This document shows positions 3,983 through 57,699 of a stretch of DNA of 64,000 bases, in pieces. Each line of letters begins with the position of its first letter. Within the stretch, counting starts at the first letter, position 1. The translations under genes were made by a program, and so were the position numbers. Below the pieces are notes generated by a model that had not been told where the DNA came from, ran no database searches, and saw only the letters and a list, made by a program, of their open reading frames with translations. Source of the stretch: a virus; IMG/VR virus record IMGVR_UViG_3300036985_009306, positions 124,001 through 188,000 of that record. One strand, 5' to 3'.

Positions 3983-6262
3983 ATGCAAATCGAACAAATT
4001 ACATTAGAGGGTTTTCTAAGTTATAAACAAAAACAAACAATAGATTTATCAAGTGTTTCTATTTGTTTGGTATTGGGTAGAATAAATGGTGATCTTGATT
4101 TATCAAATGGTGCAGGAAAATCTAGTCTTTTTGAATCTATACCTGTAAATTTCTTTGGCAAGGGCTCAGGAAGAGCTGATTTGTTGGACAGTTACATCAA
4201 TGACGACATGTCAAAGATGTATCTTGAAACTATTTTCAGAATAGATAATCAAAGATTCAAAACGGTTAGAACAAAGTTAAGATCATCAGGAACAGTTTTT
4301 GAGATTTTTCAGGATTCTACAAATAAAGAAATAGATAAAGCAACATGGAAGAAAACTGATAGATCTATTGAAGATATTCTTGGTTTAAGTGCAAAAACTT
4401 ATAGTTCGACAATATATTTGAACGAAAGAGAATCACTTCAAGTAATTACAGGAACTAGTTCTGAGAGAAAAGAAATATTAAGAGAATTGTTGAATATAGA
4501 TATTTATGAAAAAGCATCTAAATCATGTAATAGAAAATTTGACGATTTTGATAAAAAGTTTTTTGTTAATCTTGAGTTGATAAAAACACGTCAACAACAA
4601 ATAGAAAACGAATCTTGTCTTAAAGAAGATCTTGTTTCTATAGAGTCCGAATTAAGAAAACTCAAACAGGGTTTAAAATTGTTGGAGAAAACATTAAAAG
4701 ACAAAAATGAAGAAAAGAAGAAGATAGAGATTTTGATTGAGACTCAGAAAACTGTTAAAGATCAAATAGTTCAATCTCAGAAAGTGATAGATGAATTTGA
4801 AAAAGAAAAGAAAAACATACAAATAGATATTAATTCAATTAAAGATGAAATAGAAAAACAAAAGAAATCTTATTCTGCATTTAAGTCTGATATTGAAGCA
4901 AAAATTAAAGAAATACCTGACTTAGAAAAACAAATTAATACACATGAAATAATGTTAAAAGAGTTGGATAAAGTTGACAAAGAGTTCAAAGTAGTTACAG
5001 AAGAGATTAAACAAAAAGTTGACAAAAAAAGCAAATTAATAACTTCAGGTGATGTTGCAGTAGCTGAGGCAAAACCTATTAATCAACTTTTGTCTCGTTT
5101 AGATGAGTTTGGAAATGTTTGTCCAGTAACTGAGTTGGAATGTCCAGTTATAAAAGGCGATTATAAAGATGAATTAAAAAGAACAAAGACAGAAGAACTA
5201 CAGAAGAATATTGAAAAAACAGACAAAATACAAGAACAACTGAAAGTAATTGCTAAAGAATTAAAAGAGCTGCGTCAAAAAGAAAATGATTTAGAGCAAA
5301 AATCAGAAACTAGACAGAATACGAATGAAGCTTTATTGAAGGTAAAACTTTCTCTTCAGACAATAGAAAGCAATAAGACAAAATTAGTTGAGAAAGAGAA
5401 AGAGTTTAAAGAGTATTTAGAACAATGTGAAAAAGATGTAGAGAAATTAAACAAACAAAAATTTGAAAATGAAGAAAAATTAAAAGAATTTAATAAAAAC
5501 AAGAATGATTTAGAAATCAAACTTGATTCTAGTCTTGACAAAAAATTATCTATAGCTTCAAATGAAGTTTTGATTGTTGAGAAAGATATTTCAGAAGAAC
5601 AATTAAAACTTAATTCTAAAAATCAAAAACTTGGAGAAGTCAAAAATTCATTAGAAACTATTGAGAAAATGAAAAAGGATATAGAAGTTTTTATAAAAAA
5701 TAATGAAGAGCTCACAAAACAAAAAAAGATATATCAATCTCTTAGTACTATATTTGGAAAAGATGGAATACAAAAAGCAATTATAAAAGAATCAATTCCT
5801 ATGTTGGAGAAGTATACTTCAGAGTTTTTGAAAATTTTTAATGATGATTCTGAGAAAATAAAAATAAAATTTGATCTAGACCCTCGAACTCAAGATGGTG
5901 AATATAAAAAAGGTGGAGGACTTGATATTCTTGTTTTAGAAGAGGGTAAAGAACCAAAAGATTTGCAAATGTATTCAGGTGGAGAAACTGTAAGAATTGT
6001 TTTTAGCATTGTTCTATCATTAGCAAAGCTTTTATCATTGAGAGCAGGTAAGAAACATGAGTCATTGATTATAGATGAAAAAATTGCAAAGTTAGATTCA
6101 AGAGGAATAGAACAATTTGGAGAAGTGATTAGAGAGATTTCAAAAATATACAAACAGGTTTTCGTTATCACTCATATTGAAAGTTTGAAAAACATGATCA
6201 GTGGAAATGAGATTATCGTAAATAAAGTTGATAATGAGGGTAGTCTTGTCTCTGTTGTTTAA
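3983..6262 (+). CDS. sbcC: SbcC/Rad50-like (phage gp46-type) SMC-family ATPase
   Basis: ATPase partner of the SbcD-like nuclease. Walker A is SNGAGKSS (residues 41-48), preceded by a short insertion typical of phage gp46 proteins. A long coiled coil (about 190-620) is broken in the middle by CPVTELEC (380-387), at the place of the Rad50 zinc hook but spaced C-x6-C rather than CXXC. The signature YSGGETVR is near 663-670 and Walker B SLIIDE with D-loop KLDSRG near 692-705; VITHIES near the C-terminus is the H-loop region. 759 aa is within the phage family range. Confidence 0.93.
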   Translation: MQIEQITLEGFLSYKQKQTIDLSSVSICLVLGRINGDLDLSNGAGKSSLFESIPVNFFGKGSGRADLLDSYINDDMSKMYLETIFRIDNQRFKTVRTKLRSSGTVFEIFQDSTNKEIDKATWKKTDRSIEDILGLSAKTYSSTIYLNERESLQVITGTSSERKEILRELLNIDIYEKASKSCNRKFDDFDKKFFVNLELIKTRQQQIENESCLKEDLVSIESELRKLKQGLKLLEKTLKDKNEEKKKIEILIETQKTVKDQIVQSQKVIDEFEKEKKNIQIDINSIKDEIEKQKKSYSAFKSDIEAKIKEIPDLEKQINTHEIMLKELDKVDKEFKVVTEEIKQKVDKKSKLITSGDVAVAEAKPINQLLSRLDEFGNVCPVTELECPVIKGDYKDELKRTKTEELQKNIEKTDKIQEQLKVIAKELKELRQKENDLEQKSETRQNTNEALLKVKLSLQTIESNKTKLVEKEKEFKEYLEQCEKDVEKLNKQKFENEEKLKEFNKNKNDLEIKLDSSLDKKLSIASNEVLIVEKDISEEQLKLNSKNQKLGEVKNSLETIEKMKKDIEVFIKNNEELTKQKKIYQSLSTIFGKDGIQKAIIKESIPMLEKYTSEFLKIFNDDSEKIKIKFDLDPRTQDGEYKKGGGLDILVLEEGKEPKDLQMYSGGETVRIVFSIVLSLAKLLSLRAGKKHESLIIDEKIAKLDSRGIEQFGEVIREISKIYKQVFVITHIESLKNMISGNEIIVNKVDNEGSLVSVV

Positions 6263-10624: not shown

Positions 10625-11095
10625 ATGCTTAGAGATACACAATCAAAGTTTTTAAATGATATAAGTATTTCAAAAAGAGGTATTGTAAAAGTTGCTTCTT
10701 CACAAGTTCCGAGAGGAAAAGAAGCAACAACTAAACATGAAGTCAAGAAAGTTTTAAAGACTTTTGAAAAAAGTCCTGATGTGACAAAGGATACATTAAA
10801 TAAATATCAACAAAGAGTGGAATTAGATCCAAGTCCAAAAAATGTTGCTAAAGATTTCTTTAATGATCTTGGTGAAGCAAGAAAACATAAAAAACAAATG
10901 CATTTAGTAACTGCTATGTCTTTGAGACAAGCAGGTATCTTTAAGATAGCAGGTAGAAATGTATATGAGGATTTAGAGACAGGTGATTTTTGGAAAATGT
11001 CTGAAGACAAGAAACATGTTTTACGTATGTTCAAAGAAAATAATGGTATTGCTGTAAATTTAAAAGATAAAAAACATGTCGTCAATTGCCATTAA
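10625..11095 (+). CDS. hypothetical protein, 156 aa
   Basis: Strong ribosome site (TAAGGAGAAATT) before the ATG. Basic, with N-terminal disordered-looking 50 residues and a C-terminal domain that includes GRNVYEDLETGDFWKMSED, reminiscent of small beta-domain proteins in phage virions, but the family is unknown. Its stop is immediately followed by the omega-RNA candidate of the IscB element, so the element sits at the 3' edge of this gene. Confidence 0.75.
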   Translation: MLRDTQSKFLNDISISKRGIVKVASSQVPRGKEATTKHEVKKVLKTFEKSPDVTKDTLNKYQQRVELDPSPKNVAKDFFNDLGEARKHKKQMHLVTAMSLRQAGIFKIAGRNVYEDLETGDFWKMSEDKKHVLRMFKENNGIAVNLKDKKHVVNCH

Positions 11096-11310
11096 TGGTC
11101 TAAGCCGTGAGGTTTAGTGCAAGAGTTGATTAGAGGGCATGAAAATGCAGAAGTTTAAAGCAGAGTTAAAGAACGTACCAAAGAGTGCTCCACAAGCTCT
11201 TTGCTCTACAAGTCCATCTTTAAACAAAGACCAAAGTCTTAGTGAGATGGACAAAGTACTGGCTTTAAACAACCTCGAAGTGGATCCACTCCAACATAGA
11301 GGAGGACAGA
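11096..11310 (+). ncRNA. candidate omega-RNA (HEARO-like) of the IscB element
   Basis: The stretch from the stop at 11095 into the first codons of iscB folds well. Visible helices: CTAAGCC/GGTTTAG with a GUGA tetraloop (11100-11117); GTTTAAAG (11153-11160) pairing with CTTTAAAC (11218-11225, alternative copy 11263-11270); CAAAGAG/CTCTTTG (11179-11203); AAGAC/GTCTT with CAAA loop (11227-11240). IscB proteins use an RNA encoded just upstream, with the guide at its 5' end. Here it would overlap the first 60 codons of the reading frame, and the guide would come from the 3' end of the preceding gene. Ends are approximate. Confidence 0.62.
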
Positions 11311-12509
11311 AACTCTCTGTCACTATCTATGTATTTAACATACATGGCCAACCTCTAATGCCATGTTCACCAAGAAAAGCTAGAGTTTTATTAAAGAGAG
11401 GAGAAGCAAAAGTCTTAAAAACAAATCCATTCTTTGTCATTCAACTTACTAAAGAAACTAGTAATCATGTACAAGAGTGCTCTTTAGGAATAGACTCTGG
11501 TTACAAGCATATAGGTTTTTCTGTAGTTAGTGACAAGAAAGAAATTGTTTGTGGTGAGTTAGAACTTGATCAAAAAACTTCTGAAAGATTAATTAAACGA
11601 ACAGGATATCGTAGAAATAGAAGAAATAGATTGTGGTATAGAAAGCCAAGATTTAGTAATAGAAAAAAAGATAAAGGATGGTTGCCGCCTTCAACTTTAA
11701 GAAGATTCAACACTCATATCTCTCTTATCAACAAACTCAAATCTTATCTACCAATCAAAGATATCTCTATAGAAGTAGGAAATTTTGATATTCAGAAGAT
11801 AGAGAATCCAGATATTAAGGGAATACAATATCAACAGGGAAGTTTGTATGAATATCAGAATATGAGAAGTTTTTTAATGGATAGAGAACATGGCAAGTGT
11901 CAACTATGTGGAAAAGAATTTAGCAAAGGAAATGACTCACACATCCATCATATTATTCCCAGAGATGATGGAGGGACAGATAGAGAAAAGAATTTAGCTT
12001 TGTTGCATAAAAGTTGTCATAAAAAACTTCACAAACAAAAATTATTTGATAAATTAAAAAAGAACAAGCAGTATAAAGATTCAATATTTATGAATATTAT
12101 TAGATGGAGGTTTAGAGAAATATTTAGAGAATGTAGGTTAGTGTATGGGAATGAGACATTTGTAAAGAGAAATGAGTTAAGATTAGAGAAGAGACATTGT
12201 AATGATGCTTTTGTAATAGCAAGTGGTACAAATCAAATTAAGACAAATCCTATGTTTTTAAAACAGAAACATAAAAATAATAGAGTTTTGCAAGTTAATA
12301 GAAAAGGTTTTAGACCTTCTATCAGAAGAAAAAGATATTCTATTCAACCCTATGATATAGTATTTATAAATAACAAGAAATATATTGCAAAAGGGTGTCA
12401 TTGTTATGGTAAAAGTATTATTTGTAATAATAGAATAAAAACTTTGGATTGTAGTATTAAAAAAGTTGAAAAAGTTTTCTATACAAATTCAATTTTTCAA
12501 AAAATATAA
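11139..12509 (+). CDS. iscB: IscB-type RNA-guided HNH/RuvC endonuclease
   Basis: Domains in order: PLMP domain (about 64-105, with VFNIHGQPLMP and SPRKARVLLKRGEAKV); RuvC-I LGIDSGYKHIG (Asp119); Arg-rich bridge helix (151-176, RTGYRRNRRNR); RuvC-II ISIEVGN (Glu212); HNH nuclease (254-297, CQLCGKE, HIHHIIPRDDGGT, CHKKLH); RuvC-III RHCNDAFVIA (Asp356). All catalytic positions are present, so it should cut DNA with an omega-RNA guide. Typical IscB starts at the PLMP domain; residues 1-60 here have low protein-like character and overlap the RNA candidate, so the true start may be ATG 11247 or GTG 11280. The gene is wedged into an operon of unrelated genes. Confidence 0.9.
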   Translation: MKMQKFKAELKNVPKSAPQALCSTSPSLNKDQSLSEMDKVLALNNLEVDPLQHRGGQKLSVTIYVFNIHGQPLMPCSPRKARVLLKRGEAKVLKTNPFFVIQLTKETSNHVQECSLGIDSGYKHIGFSVVSDKKEIVCGELELDQKTSERLIKRTGYRRNRRNRLWYRKPRFSNRKKDKGWLPPSTLRRFNTHISLINKLKSYLPIKDISIEVGNFDIQKIENPDIKGIQYQQGSLYEYQNMRSFLMDREHGKCQLCGKEFSKGNDSHIHHIIPRDDGGTDREKNLALLHKSCHKKLHKQKLFDKLKKNKQYKDSIFMNIIRWRFREIFRECRLVYGNETFVKRNELRLEKRHCNDAFVIASGTNQIKTNPMFLKQKHKNNRVLQVNRKGFRPSIRRKRYSIQPYDIVFINNKKYIAKGCHCYGKSIICNNRIKTLDCSIKKVEKVFYTNSIFQKI

Positions 12510-26432: not shown

Positions 26433-26505
26433 AGACCCATAGCTCGTTGGTTCAGAGGCCTTCTTTACAAGTAGAATGTCGGGAGTTCGACTCTCTCTGG
26501 GTCTA
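26433..26505 (+). tRNA. tRNA-Val(TAC), imperfect anticodon stem
   Basis: Acceptor AGACCCA/TGGGTCT and T-arm GGGAG-TTCGACT-CTCTC are sound. The best anticodon arm is CCTTC-TTTACAA-GTAGA with two mismatches, giving UAC. D-arm GCTC/GAGG has one mismatch. Possibly drifting. Confidence 0.65.
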
Positions 26506-27688: not shown

Positions 27689-27773
27689 GCCCAAGTGGTG
27701 CAATTGGTACCCACAACGGTCTTAAGAACCGTCGAAAGAAATTTCATTGCCAGTTCAAATCTGGCCTTGGGCA
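27689..27773 (+). tRNA. tRNA-Leu(TAA)
   Basis: Acceptor GCCCAAG/CTTGGGC, anticodon arm ACGGT-CTTAAGA-ACCGT, long variable arm GAAA.../TTTC, T-arm GCCAG/CTGGC. Confidence 0.92.
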
Positions 27774-27787
27774 AGTTCTTTGAAAAT

Positions 27788-27933
27788 TAAGTTGTATCCT
27801 TTAACACTTAATGCTTACATTAAATTTTGTGGTTCGACTCCACATTCCCCCAATTATGGGGGAATAGCCAAATGGTAAAGGCAATAGACTATAGATCTAT
27901 CAAAAACAGCATTATCAACTTGGATACAACTTA
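27788..27933 (+). tRNA. circularly permuted tRNA gene, anticodon AUA (Tyr-type)
   Basis: The 3' half comes first: T-arm TGTGG-TTCGACT-CCACA and acceptor strand TTCCCCC+A (to 27852). After a 5-base linker (ATTAT) the 5' half follows: GGGGGAA (27858-27864), TA, D-arm GCC/GGC, anticodon arm ATAGA-CTATAGA-TCTAT. The two acceptor strands pair 7/7. The outer ends also pair: TAAGTTGTATCC (27788-27799) with GGATACAACTTA (27922-27933), 12 bp; TAATGCT with AGCATTA, 7 bp; TTTTG with CAAAA, 5 bp, which together form an extended variable arm. Cutting the linker alone would yield a complete two-piece class II tRNA. Anticodon AUA reads UAU (Tyr). Confidence 0.72.
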
Positions 27934-27939
27934 TTTTAC

Positions 27940-28012
27940 ACTAATGTAGCTCAATTGGTAGAGTAATGGGATCATACCCCAGAGGTTAAGAGTTCGAATC
28001 TCTTCATTAGTA
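27940..28012 (+). tRNA. tRNA-Met(CAT)
   Basis: Acceptor ACTAATG/CATTAGT, D-arm GCTC/GAGT, anticodon loop ATCATAC, T-arm AAGAG/CTCTT. Could be Ile2(CAU) if lysidine-modified; sequence alone cannot decide. Confidence 0.87.
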
Positions 28013-28927: not shown

Positions 28928-29200
28928 ATGTTAGACAAAAGACAAGAAGCCGTTTCTATTGCAGAAGAAGTGTTGAACGTTATTCCTAAGGAAGTTACAT
29001 ATAAAGTGCCTGGTCTGACTATGGAGGATATTAAAATTACATATAAAGTGCCTGGTCTGACTATGGAGGATATTAAAATTACATATAAAGTGCCTGGTCT
29101 GACTATGGAGGATATTAAAATTACATATAAAGTGCCTGGTCTGACTATGGAGGATTTAAGTGTTGTTAAAGTTTATGGTGACTGTAGTTTAGATGGCTAA
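28928..29200 (+). CDS. protein with perfect 14-residue tandem repeats, 90 aa
   Basis: GGGAGG ribosome site, then an N-terminal helix (EEVLNVIPKEV) similar to the start of the protein at 10292. Residues 24-76 are three full copies and one partial copy of TYKVPGLTMEDIKI. The last eight codons lie inside the tRNA-His gene, so translation and tRNA processing compete for the same transcript. Confidence 0.6.
   Translation: MLDKRQEAVSIAEEVLNVIPKEVTYKVPGLTMEDIKITYKVPGLTMEDIKITYKVPGLTMEDIKITYKVPGLTMEDLSVVKVYGDCSLDG
28997..29155 (+). repeat. 42-bp perfect tandem repeat, 3.8 copies
   Basis: Unit starts ACATATAAAGTGCCTGGTCT; copies at 28997, 29039, 29081 and 29123 (last one 33 nt). Copies are identical at nucleotide level, so the expansion is recent. 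Confidence 0.93.
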
Positions 29201-29251: not shown

Positions 29252-29305
29252 CTCTCATTATGAAAAAATATTATACAGTCTACAAAACTAAGCCGCTAAT
29301 TTTCT

Positions 29306-29395
29306 GGGTCAGAGGCAACTATCGGGTGTGTTGCGCAAGACTGTAGATCTTGTCCCGTAGGGTAAACATTGGAGGTTCAACTCCTTCCTGGCCCA
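29306..29395 (+). tRNA. tRNA-Tyr(GTA)
   Basis: Class II: acceptor GGGTCAG/CTGGCCC, D-arm GCAAC/GTTGC, anticodon arm CAAGA-CTGTAGA-TCTTG, variable arm TCCC/GGGT, T-arm GGAGG/CCTTC. Confidence 0.9.
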
Positions 29396-29412
29396 TTTTG
29401 GAGAAATTTAAA

Positions 29413-33265: not shown

Positions 33266-34273
33266 ATGCTTAGAAAACTAGCTTCAATTCGAAAAGTAAG
33301 AGACATCAAACCAATAAAAGATGCTGATGCAATTGAACTTGCAATTGTTGATGGATGGCAAGTAGTTGTAAAAAAGGGACAATTTAAACTTGATGAACTT
33401 GTAGTCTATGTAGAAATAGACTCATTTTTGCCAGAACGCTCAGAATTCGAGTTTTTAAGAAAAAGCTCACATCGAACAATGGCGGACGGTTCAACAGGAT
33501 TTAGACTTAAAACTGTTCGTTTGAGAGGACAACTTAGTCAAGGTTTGATTCTTCCTCTCAATGAAGTCAATCTTTCTAATGTCAATCTGGGTGATGAAGT
33601 TACAGAGCAACTGGGAATTAAAAAGTATGAACCACCTATTCCAGCTTGTCTTGCAGGAGAGATGAGAGGAGCTGTTCCAGGAGAAATTCATAAAAGTGAT
33701 CAAGAAAGAATTCACAATTTATTAAACTATTGGACAATCTATAAAGATTTAGAATTTGAAGAAACAGAGAAGCTCAATGGTGCTAGTATGACTGTTTATC
33801 ACAATCAGGGAGATACCGGAGTTTGTGGCCATAAATGGAATATGAAGGAAACTAAGGACAACACCCTTTGGAAGGTCTCTAGAAGGCTCGAATTAACAGA
33901 GAGATTAACTAAATTAGGATTGAATCTAGCACTTCAAGGTGAGATCATTGGAGAAGGTATTCAATCTAATTGGTACAAAATAATTGGACAAACTTTTAAA
34001 ATCTATGATATCTGGGATATTGACAATCAGTACTATTTAACAAACAAAGAACGATTAGATATCATTCAAAAACTTGGATTTGATCTTTCTATTCACGTAC
34101 CTATTCTAAATGCTCATATGAAGATTTTTGATATAATTAAAGATGTTAATGAATTTTTAGAATATTCAACAGGAATTTCAAAATTAGCCAATGTGCAACG
34201 AGAGGGTCTTGTTTATAAATCAACAGAAAGAGTTGGACCTCAAACTATTTCTTTTAAAGTATTAAAAGAGTGA
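33266..34273 (+). CDS. RNA ligase (Rnl5/DRB0094-like), 335 aa
   Basis: Nucleotidyltransferase motif I EKLNGAS (Lys about 168, the AMP acceptor), motif III/IIIa region LALQGEIIGEGI and FKIYDIWDI, motif IV EGLVYKS, motif V SFKVLKE at the very C-terminus. The N-terminal 110 residues (VRDIKPIKDADAIELAIVDGWQVVV...) form the OB-like domain of the DraRnl (Rnl5) family. Such ligases seal RNA 3'-OH/5'-P ends or nicks. Close to two tRNA groups it could repair cleaved tRNAs or seal processed ones. All catalytic motifs are intact, unlike the DNA ligase homologue at 7166. Confidence 0.88.
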   Translation: MLRKLASIRKVRDIKPIKDADAIELAIVDGWQVVVKKGQFKLDELVVYVEIDSFLPERSEFEFLRKSSHRTMADGSTGFRLKTVRLRGQLSQGLILPLNEVNLSNVNLGDEVTEQLGIKKYEPPIPACLAGEMRGAVPGEIHKSDQERIHNLLNYWTIYKDLEFEETEKLNGASMTVYHNQGDTGVCGHKWNMKETKDNTLWKVSRRLELTERLTKLGLNLALQGEIIGEGIQSNWYKIIGQTFKIYDIWDIDNQYYLTNKERLDIIQKLGFDLSIHVPILNAHMKIFDIIKDVNEFLEYSTGISKLANVQREGLVYKSTERVGPQTISFKVLKE

Positions 34274-56685: not shown

Positions 56686-57699
56686 ATGCAATTTGCTCTA
56701 TCGCCTTCTGTATTTTTTGAATCTTTAAGAACTAAATCACAGGATTTTGTAAGATCAATTCAGATAGAAATTCTTTCTGGTTGTGCATGTAAATGTGTCA
56801 TGTGCAAACAATGGGAAGATAGACAATCATATTATATGGAACCTGATCAACTTACAAAATTTTTTAATGATTATAAGAGACTTGGTGGGCTTCAAGCAAA
56901 TTTAACTGGTGGTGATCCTCTTTACTACAAAGATTTTGTGAAAGTATTTTCTCAGGACTTTGGATTGAGATTAGACATTACTACTACAATGATTACTAAT
57001 GATAAAGAAAAACTCGATTTGTTAAAAAAGTTCAAGCTTATTACAGTAAGCATTTCGGGTACAAAAGACATGTATGAGAAAGTTCAAGGTATAAATGCTT
57101 ATGAGTTAGTTAAAAAGAATTTGGTTTATATAAGAAAGAAGGGAATGAATTTTAAGACAAATACAGTCTTAAATGATGTAAATCTTAGTAATTTAGATTG
57201 GGTTGAACAGTTTGTAGAAGACATGAATCTTTTACAACCTAAGTTTGTGACTCTCATTCAAAGCTTATTTGATGAAGGCAGTTTTACTAATATTCCTGAT
57301 GTAGTAAAAATATTTAAAGACAAAGCAAAATTTAAGTTTTCAAATGCAACAATGGGAGATAGAAATAAAAAGCATAAGAAAGAACCTAATTTTAAGAAAT
57401 ATCCTTGTATAATTCCTTATTTGCATTGGCATATTAAATCTAGTGGTGATGTTTATCCTTGTTGTATAATGGGAGGAGAAGTAGGTCAGGATTTAGATCC
57501 CAAATTTTGTTTTGGAAACATATTTAAAGACAGTCTTGAGACTATCTATAAAAATGGAACTAATTTTGTGGACAATGCAGGAGCTAATATTTATGATGGA
57601 GGGTTGTGTAAAAAGATGTGTCTTAATGGAGTTAGATATTATTCTTTGAACAGGGATTTTTATAGATTTGATAAAGGAATTTTTGTACCAAGAATATAA
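56686..57699 (+). CDS. radical SAM protein with SPASM-like C-terminus, 337 aa
   Basis: The 4Fe-4S/SAM motif is SGCACKCVMCKQW (C-x3-C-x2-C, about 31-43), followed by the TGGDPLYY glycine motif (about 75-82). C-terminal cysteines in HIKSSGDVYPCCIMGG, FCFGNIF and GLCKKMCLNG look like a SPASM auxiliary cluster site. Such enzymes modify peptides, sugars or nucleosides; substrate not evident. AAAAGGAAAT ribosome site. Confidence 0.9.
   Translation: MQFALSPSVFFESLRTKSQDFVRSIQIEILSGCACKCVMCKQWEDRQSYYMEPDQLTKFFNDYKRLGGLQANLTGGDPLYYKDFVKVFSQDFGLRLDITTTMITNDKEKLDLLKKFKLITVSISGTKDMYEKVQGINAYELVKKNLVYIRKKGMNFKTNTVLNDVNLSNLDWVEQFVEDMNLLQPKFVTLIQSLFDEGSFTNIPDVVKIFKDKAKFKFSNATMGDRNKKHKKEPNFKKYPCIIPYLHWHIKSSGDVYPCCIMGGEVGQDLDPKFCFGNIFKDSLETIYKNGTNFVDNAGANIYDGGLCKKMCLNGVRYYSLNRDFYRFDKGIFVPRI

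Follow-up and report, generated by a model that had tools for sequence, protein, structure and literature searches.

The window, that is, the whole stretch of viral DNA that was analysed (64,000 nucleotides), carries a unit on its plus strand between genes for tRNA-Leu (27689-27773) and tRNA-Met (27940-28012). In this unit, the parts of a tRNA are encoded in an unusual order. They are given below together with an RNA ligase gene located further downstream:

27788-27799, plus strand: 5' strand of P1, the 12-bp outer stem (MFE fold; the 8 modelled P1 pairs covary in 50 units)
27808-27815, plus strand: 5' strand of P2, 7 bp, with 27809-27815 paired to 27908-27914 (MFE fold; the 7 modelled P2 pairs covary in 50 units)
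27815-27819, plus strand: junction motif UUACA on the exon-2 side, conserved among units
27820-27827, plus strand: variable region on the exon-2 side, ending in Y48; cut region predicted from sequence
27828-27844, plus strand: T-arm, 5-bp stem 27828-27832/27840-27844, loop UUCGACU
27845-27852, plus strand: 3' acceptor strand UUCCCCC (27845-27851) and discriminator A73 (27852); CCA not encoded
27853-27857, plus strand: linker AUUAU between the tRNA 3' and 5' ends; predicted site of RNase P and 3'-end processing
27858-27864, plus strand: 5' acceptor strand GGGGGAA, pairing 7/7 with 27845-27851 (fold and scanner)
27867-27882, plus strand: D-arm, GG in the loop
27884-27900, plus strand: anticodon arm, loop CUAUAGA, anticodon AUA (Tyr, UAU)
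27901-27907, plus strand: variable region on the exon-1 side, CAAAAAC; cut region predicted from sequence
27908-27914, plus strand: 3' strand of P2 (MFE fold; covariation)
27917-27921, plus strand: internal-loop motif ACUY, here AACUU, conserved among units
27922-27933, plus strand: 3' strand of P1 (MFE fold; covariation)
33266-34273, plus strand: RNA ligase, PF09414 with PHA02142 OB-fold; a candidate for sealing the unit, the link being putative

The T-arm and 3' acceptor strand are followed by the 5-nt linker, the 5' acceptor strand, the D-arm and the anticodon arm (27828-27900), and two outer helices of 12 bp (27788-27799/27922-27933) and 7 bp (27809-27815/27908-27914) enclose the cloverleaf. 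A preliminary description of this DNA had proposed a circularly permuted tRNA gene, with the 3' half preceding the 5' half and a full cloverleaf whose acceptor strands pair 7/7. This was borne out, as were its coordinates and its view that the linker of 5 bases is the sole cut needed at the acceptor end. It had also drawn three outer helices, of 12, 7 and 5 bp. The first two were recovered; the 5-bp helix (27825-27829/27901-27905) overlaps the T-stem, to which U27828 and G27829 also belong, so that no more than three of its pairs could form alongside the cloverleaf. The MFE of the 27788-27933 stretch was -47.3 kcal/mol (z -6.8). The unit is probably a class II tRNA-Tyr whose anticodon is AUA, because its anticodon loop (CUAUAGA) and the loop of the ordinary tRNA-Tyr(GUA) at 29305-29396 (CUGUAGA) are identical except at position 34.

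Neither ARAGORN nor Rfam called the unit in scans of the window. When 400 dinucleotide-shuffled windows were searched, 3 matches with 7/7 pairing were obtained (0.0075 per window), as against 1 observed. Neither half is part of an ordinary tRNA, the neighbours being tRNA-Leu and tRNA-Met. At the level of sequence, the permuted tRNA gene in the window and the class to which it belongs, described below, are confirmed as real. Other features of the window include a HEARO RNA (98 bits, 11081-11289) located just upstream of and overlapping an ORF at 11139-12509, a tRNA-Val(UAC) at 26433-26505 that was matched by Rfam and missed by ARAGORN, a 42-bp repeat (attacatataaagtgcctggtctgactatggaggatattaaa) present in four tandem copies (28990-29160) within the ORF 28928-29200 just before tRNA-His, and a radical SAM protein with a SPASM domain (56686-57699).

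Permuted units were collected by pattern scans of IMG/VR for a T-arm, then a G/C acceptor hairpin, then the start of a D-arm. One such scan returned 119 stretches, 102 of which contained a permuted unit according to a relaxed scanner, and the scans together yielded ~160 distinct units. In many of them NCCA was encoded directly after the internal 3' acceptor strand, implying that the true mature 3' end lies inside the gene. The nucleotide preceding the T-stem was nearly always a pyrimidine, as expected of Y48. A covariance model of the window's type, in which the break lies in the variable region (R1, 145 positions), detected 50 distinct units at a threshold of at least 61 bits; ordinary tandem tRNAs used as controls reached up to ~48 bits, and the best match in 91 bacterial control loci was a partial one of 44 bits. 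Rfam at relaxed E on the unit loci returned tRNA, weak YrlA and noise, and nothing else. Several units with differing anticodons were present in one genome (three in L230, five in L099 and two in Microbacterium phage Zooman), and carriers included the named phages Zooman and Big4 (Microbacterium), CcrPW (Caulobacter), Atuin (Arthrobacter) and Satis (Streptomyces). Permuted tRNA genes appear to be a common feature of tailed phages that standard annotation has missed. In the literature searched, permuted tRNA genes were not named in phages, bioRxiv and most subscription journals being outside its scope. By the model alignment, the anticodon loop was not 7 nt long in 7 of the 50 window-type units, and U33 was absent in 2 more. 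Decay, a decoy role or frameshift decoding could account for the units with 6-nt or 8-nt loops (L095:1451-1585, L106:2663-2806, L010:8416-8560 and L200:1224-1377). A pattern scan of genome contigs recovered mostly ordinary tRNA-Val(UAC) with the loop CUUACACGCAGG.

Alignment of the flanks of window-type units revealed a common junction element. On the 5' side, P1 is followed by a strand of 3-5 nt, P2 and UUACA, and on the 3' side P2' is followed by ACUY and P1'. CUUACA was invariant in 10 divergent units, and the A, C and A of the motif were conserved at 82-94% in the 50 units; the ACU of the internal loop was likewise invariant in the 10 units and conserved at 74-84% in the 50. All 15 modelled outer-stem pairs (8 in P1 and 7 in P2) showed both-sided changes in the 50 units, with a covariation score of 0.888 compared with 0.192±0.011 after shuffling and at most 0.181 when partners were slid. 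Since this alignment was fitted to model R1, a MAFFT alignment of the 10 units is the fairer check; it gave 0.691 vs 0.230, with P1 95% paired, for a structure that was itself written from those 10 sequences. In the closest homologue of the window's unit, L095, which has a 6-nt anticodon loop and whose phage has few proteins in common with the window's phage, P1 was kept through paired changes. Compensatory changes in the outer stem, which the preliminary description had looked to relatives for, are present in both alignments and in L095.

In a second type of unit, the break lies in the anticodon arm itself, whose 5' strand is interrupted after position 27 to 29. We called a joined arm legal if it had five pairs, a loop of 7 nt in which position 33 is U and position 37 a purine, and a variable loop of 4-5 nt ending in Y. 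Such an arm was rebuilt by joining exon 1 to exon 2 in 45 of 108 cases, as compared with 8.1±2.5 for mismatched halves (maximum 16 in 500). For example, the halves of L028:9013-9143 give a tRNA-Thr(UGU) with a predicted cut at UUACA(U)^G. Zooman (L480) has an unannotated permuted tRNA-Trp(CCA) and tRNA-Thr(UGU) at 3998-4100 and 4262-4360, and its comparison with Big4 revealed a compensatory change between separated halves (CCG/GCCGG vs CCU/GCAGG). The Big4 (L488) counterpart of the first Zooman unit has the anticodon UCA and would read UGA. U33 was missing from the joined anticodon loop in MiniLon, Snenia and Krypton555. Related end motifs were also found in tRNA genes of ordinary order: tRNAs annotated as pseudo in KVP40 (L479; 5919-6031, 6042-6165 and 7716-7831), which have anticodon-arm inserts of ~41-46 nt, and a tRNA-Asp of L196 carry short inserts at the places where permuted units are broken. 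One of the KVP40 inserts ends in UUUACAUGCA, and a hairpin with a UGACAA loop is common to the others. Because the inserts occupy matching places, a permuted gene looks like an intron-bearing tRNA gene that has been cut open in the intron hairpin and joined up at the acceptor end. ARAGORN in intron mode was too noisy for an intron search, and no Rfam intron family matched at the window locus or in L084, L230, L229, L323, L479 and L480. From the anticodon-stem breaks and the introns, we infer that the transcripts are cut and ligated.

We then found that Ro60-like proteins are encoded next to many units. ORFs were clustered from 136 loci with units and 221 loci without, and four families with Ro-like architecture (clusters A-D) were enriched at unit loci. 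These ORFs occurred at 60/136 loci with units and 10/221 without (p=5e-20), and at 25/74 vs 6/194 of loci with at least 3 ordinary tRNAs (p=7e-11); for the first scan alone the difference was not significant (48/102 vs 4/17, p=0.11), since few of the loci obtained with its pattern lacked a permuted unit. All 60 shared the strand of the unit at a median gap of 443 nt, and 43 of the 60 were located within 1 kb of it, compared with 15% of other long ORFs. Homing HNH proteins, on the other hand, were not enriched at permuted loci (26/136 vs 47/221). A Pfam search for TROVE missed most of the Ro-like proteins, which were found by clustering. Cluster B matched Pfam TROVE and vWA_Ro60, and the cluster A profile matched TROVE over 368 residues. 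For a predicted model of cluster A (pLDDT 85), the twelve best PDB matches were all Ro60/TROVE, among them the deposited Ro60 structure of Thermus phage phiLo. The assignment of cluster C, by a vWA-like motif and a model with pLDDT 76, has a weaker basis than that of cluster A, and cluster D contained DUF2828 and DUF7788. Cluster A proteins were also encoded elsewhere in the records of L323, L333, L286, L058, L164, L107, L250, L230 and L010.

The junction motif changed with the Ro clade, which suggests recognition by the protein. UUACAYG occurred with cluster A in 25/25 cases, UUACUUC with B in 13/18, UUCAG or UUACAG with C in 18/19 and ACAGCAA with D in 13/15, in counts that include related, non-independent phages and motif classes set after the sequences had been seen. 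Among six named phages with Ro genes picked afterwards, three (Atuin, CcrPW and Satis) had units near the Ro gene, and these units carried UUACUUC-like motifs, as predicted for cluster B; phiKT1024, crAss001 and Trax had a Ro-like gene and no permuted unit within 2.5 kb of it. KVP40, with its intron-bearing tRNAs, had no cluster A protein. In Lclasvirinae (Mycobacterium phages), a unit of permuted layout was located right after a Ro-like gene, and a search with one such unit matched 93 records. In Vilmaviridae mycobacteriophages (L482-L495) the identity of the unit beside the Ro-like gene varied among relatives (Ile, Asn or Thr), and a second ACAGCAAU element was present ~50 nt downstream. The association points to the Ro-like protein as a putative partner of permuted units and ties these units to Ro60-like proteins, which in bacteria occur together with tRNA-like Y RNAs.

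The window's phage differs in that no Ro-like gene was detected in all 192 kb of its record, and no Ro-like protein was detected in the L095 record. The RNA ligases of these two phages belong to one family (41% identity), and the record of L211 has an RNA ligase too. The preliminary description had named the ligase at 33266 as an optional sealing enzyme; the gene is real, and its sealing of the tRNA is putative. Among the families searched, which included PF09414 and RtcB, no ligase was common to the class. EndA (PF01974) was absent from 26 records, and a search for T4 Rnl1 (PF09511) found none even in controls and is not informative.

Permuted tRNA genes have been reported in a few algae and one archaeon, with 34 genes listed in a 2014 review (PMC3978253). 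As in the phage units, the 3' half comes first, a short linker connects the acceptor ends and a full cloverleaf results after rearrangement. The phage units, however, are found in tailed phages, have a P1/P2 junction with UUACA and ACUY where the others have a bulge-helix-bulge (no 3-4-3 bulge-helix-bulge was seen on inspection of the window fold), lack EndA in the records tested and often lie beside a Ro-like protein. Bacterial YrlA is a Y RNA that occurs with Rsr/Ro60 and an RtcB operon (PMC7790460). It resembles the phage units in the order of T-arm, acceptor and D-arm, in a Ro-like partner gene, frequent in the phage class, and in an outer helix that joins the ends, whereas the units have a complete anticodon arm, many anticodons and halves that fit across the break, and score below the YrlA cut-off, and the window's phage lacks a Ro-like gene. 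The small tRNA introns of Lak megaphages, which have been called enigmatic, are also short non-group-I inserts in phage tRNAs, but Lak tRNAs keep the ordinary order (PMC6784885); the introns compared here were those of KVP40 and L196 only. Two-piece tmRNA (permuted ssrA) shares a permuted gene and two paired pieces with the units. It differs from them in that the units have an anticodon arm and no tmRNA match (none was found in the window by ARAGORN or Rfam), and relatives broken within the anticodon stem speak for joining.

With moderate confidence, we favour the view that 27788-27933 is a functional permuted tRNA gene, probably for tRNA-Tyr(AUA), that belongs to a widespread phage class and matures by cutting and ligation. 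The junction element (P1, an internal loop with ACUY, P2, then UUACA) would hold both tRNA halves in the folded transcript, the junction strands would be cut, and ligation of the inner ends would generate a circular pre-tRNA, whose 5-nt linker host RNase P and 3' processing may then open, yielding a linear tRNA of the usual kind. For most of the class, a Ro60-like protein (TROVE or helical-vWA) of the motif-matching clade probably recognises the junction. As the window's phage is without a Ro-like protein, recognition there would fall to some other factor or to the RNA itself, and a phage or host ligase would seal the ends. More tentatively, and as a possibility that we regard as less than probable, these phages may have a dedicated tRNA-rearranging system in which Ro60-like proteins read clade-specific junctions on permuted tRNA precursors, and on those with short introns, and direct both cutting and joining.

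The main rival is that the units are Ro-bound Y RNAs of the YrlA type, that is, permuted tRNA mimics serving as partner, tether or decoy and never joined for decoding. The Ro-like gene adjoining the units, directly upstream in Mycobacterium phages, would fit this idea, as would the abnormal anticodon loops of some units, the like order of arms in YrlA (RF02553) with weak matches to several units, and the description of Ro/TROVE with a tRNA-like partner as an RNA-repair platform (PMC7824862). Yet no unit reached the RF02553 cut-off of 69 bits and the window's unit was unmatched at E<=1; a mimic would have no need of anticodon-arm halves that fit, single genomes carry several units with different anticodons, NCCA ends are encoded, and the record of the window's phage is without a Ro-like gene. 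We therefore judge this explanation rather unlikely. A new self-cleaving or self-splicing ribozyme at the junction, making the circle with no dedicated protein and with the Ro-like protein as chaperone, is more doubtful: although small conserved loops (UUACA and ACUY) flank two helices and no nuclease or ligase is common to all carriers, the window's phage lacking Ro as well, the loci tested had no Rfam ribozyme match, the twister-sister loop that was compared is unlike the junction, and the motif varies with the Ro clade.

The preliminary description had proposed maturation with no ligation, as a two-piece tRNA held by pairing, with the free ends on its extended variable arm. Such an RNA would resemble two-piece tmRNA. 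With its 12 bp the outer stem would indeed keep the pieces together, long variable arms are tolerated in class II tRNAs, no RNA ligase shows up in many of the genomes with units, and permuted tmRNA genes yield two-piece RNAs (PMC10085705). This proposal did not stand up well against the relatives and we consider it improbable, although a two-piece product is conceivable for the window's own break in the variable arm. In homologous units the break falls within the anticodon stem or loop; a nick left unligated there, with a long helix attached, would not easily be accommodated by the ribosome. A related junction bounds short introns of ordinary-order phage tRNAs; moreover, the junction loops are conserved in sequence (UUACA, ACUY) beyond pairing, which a mere clamp would not need. 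Cutting and ligation is favoured over such a two-piece tRNA because halves broken in the anticodon stem rebuild legal arms beyond chance. Finally, the T-arm of a dead tRNA might lie by the 5' half of another through chance or decay of tandem tRNA genes. Tandem tRNAs are common in phages and give weak model matches (to ~48 bits), but the shuffles, the outer-stem covariation and the match of separated halves refute this explanation, which retains a negligible probability.

The class points to a previously unrecognised way in which phages would cut and rejoin tRNAs. If true, this tRNA-rearranging system would be a viral counterpart of archaeal bulge-helix-bulge splicing, and bacterial YrlA with its Ro/RtcB operons would be a relative, which would provide a concrete original function for Ro and Y RNAs. 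Because named phages on laboratory hosts carry units, their processing, partner and purpose are directly testable.

With regard to purpose, the anticodons of permuted tRNAs provide one hint. Among permuted tRNAs for Asn, Tyr and His, A34 anticodons (AUU, AUA and AUG) were strongly overrepresented: A34 was present in 12/28 permuted Asn, Tyr, His or Asp units vs 13/465 ordinary tRNAs taken from the loci holding permuted units (p=3e-10). Colicin E5-type nucleases cut the GUN set of tRNAs between positions 34 and 35. GUN tRNAs (Asn, Tyr, His and Asp) also receive queuosine (PMC12313893). As the two sets are the same, evasion by A34 is a reasonable guess, and its use at Asn, Tyr and His suggests that these tRNAs avoid nucleases or modification enzymes recognising G34-U35. 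In sampled ORFs of the window, UAU occurred 199 times vs 24 for UAC.
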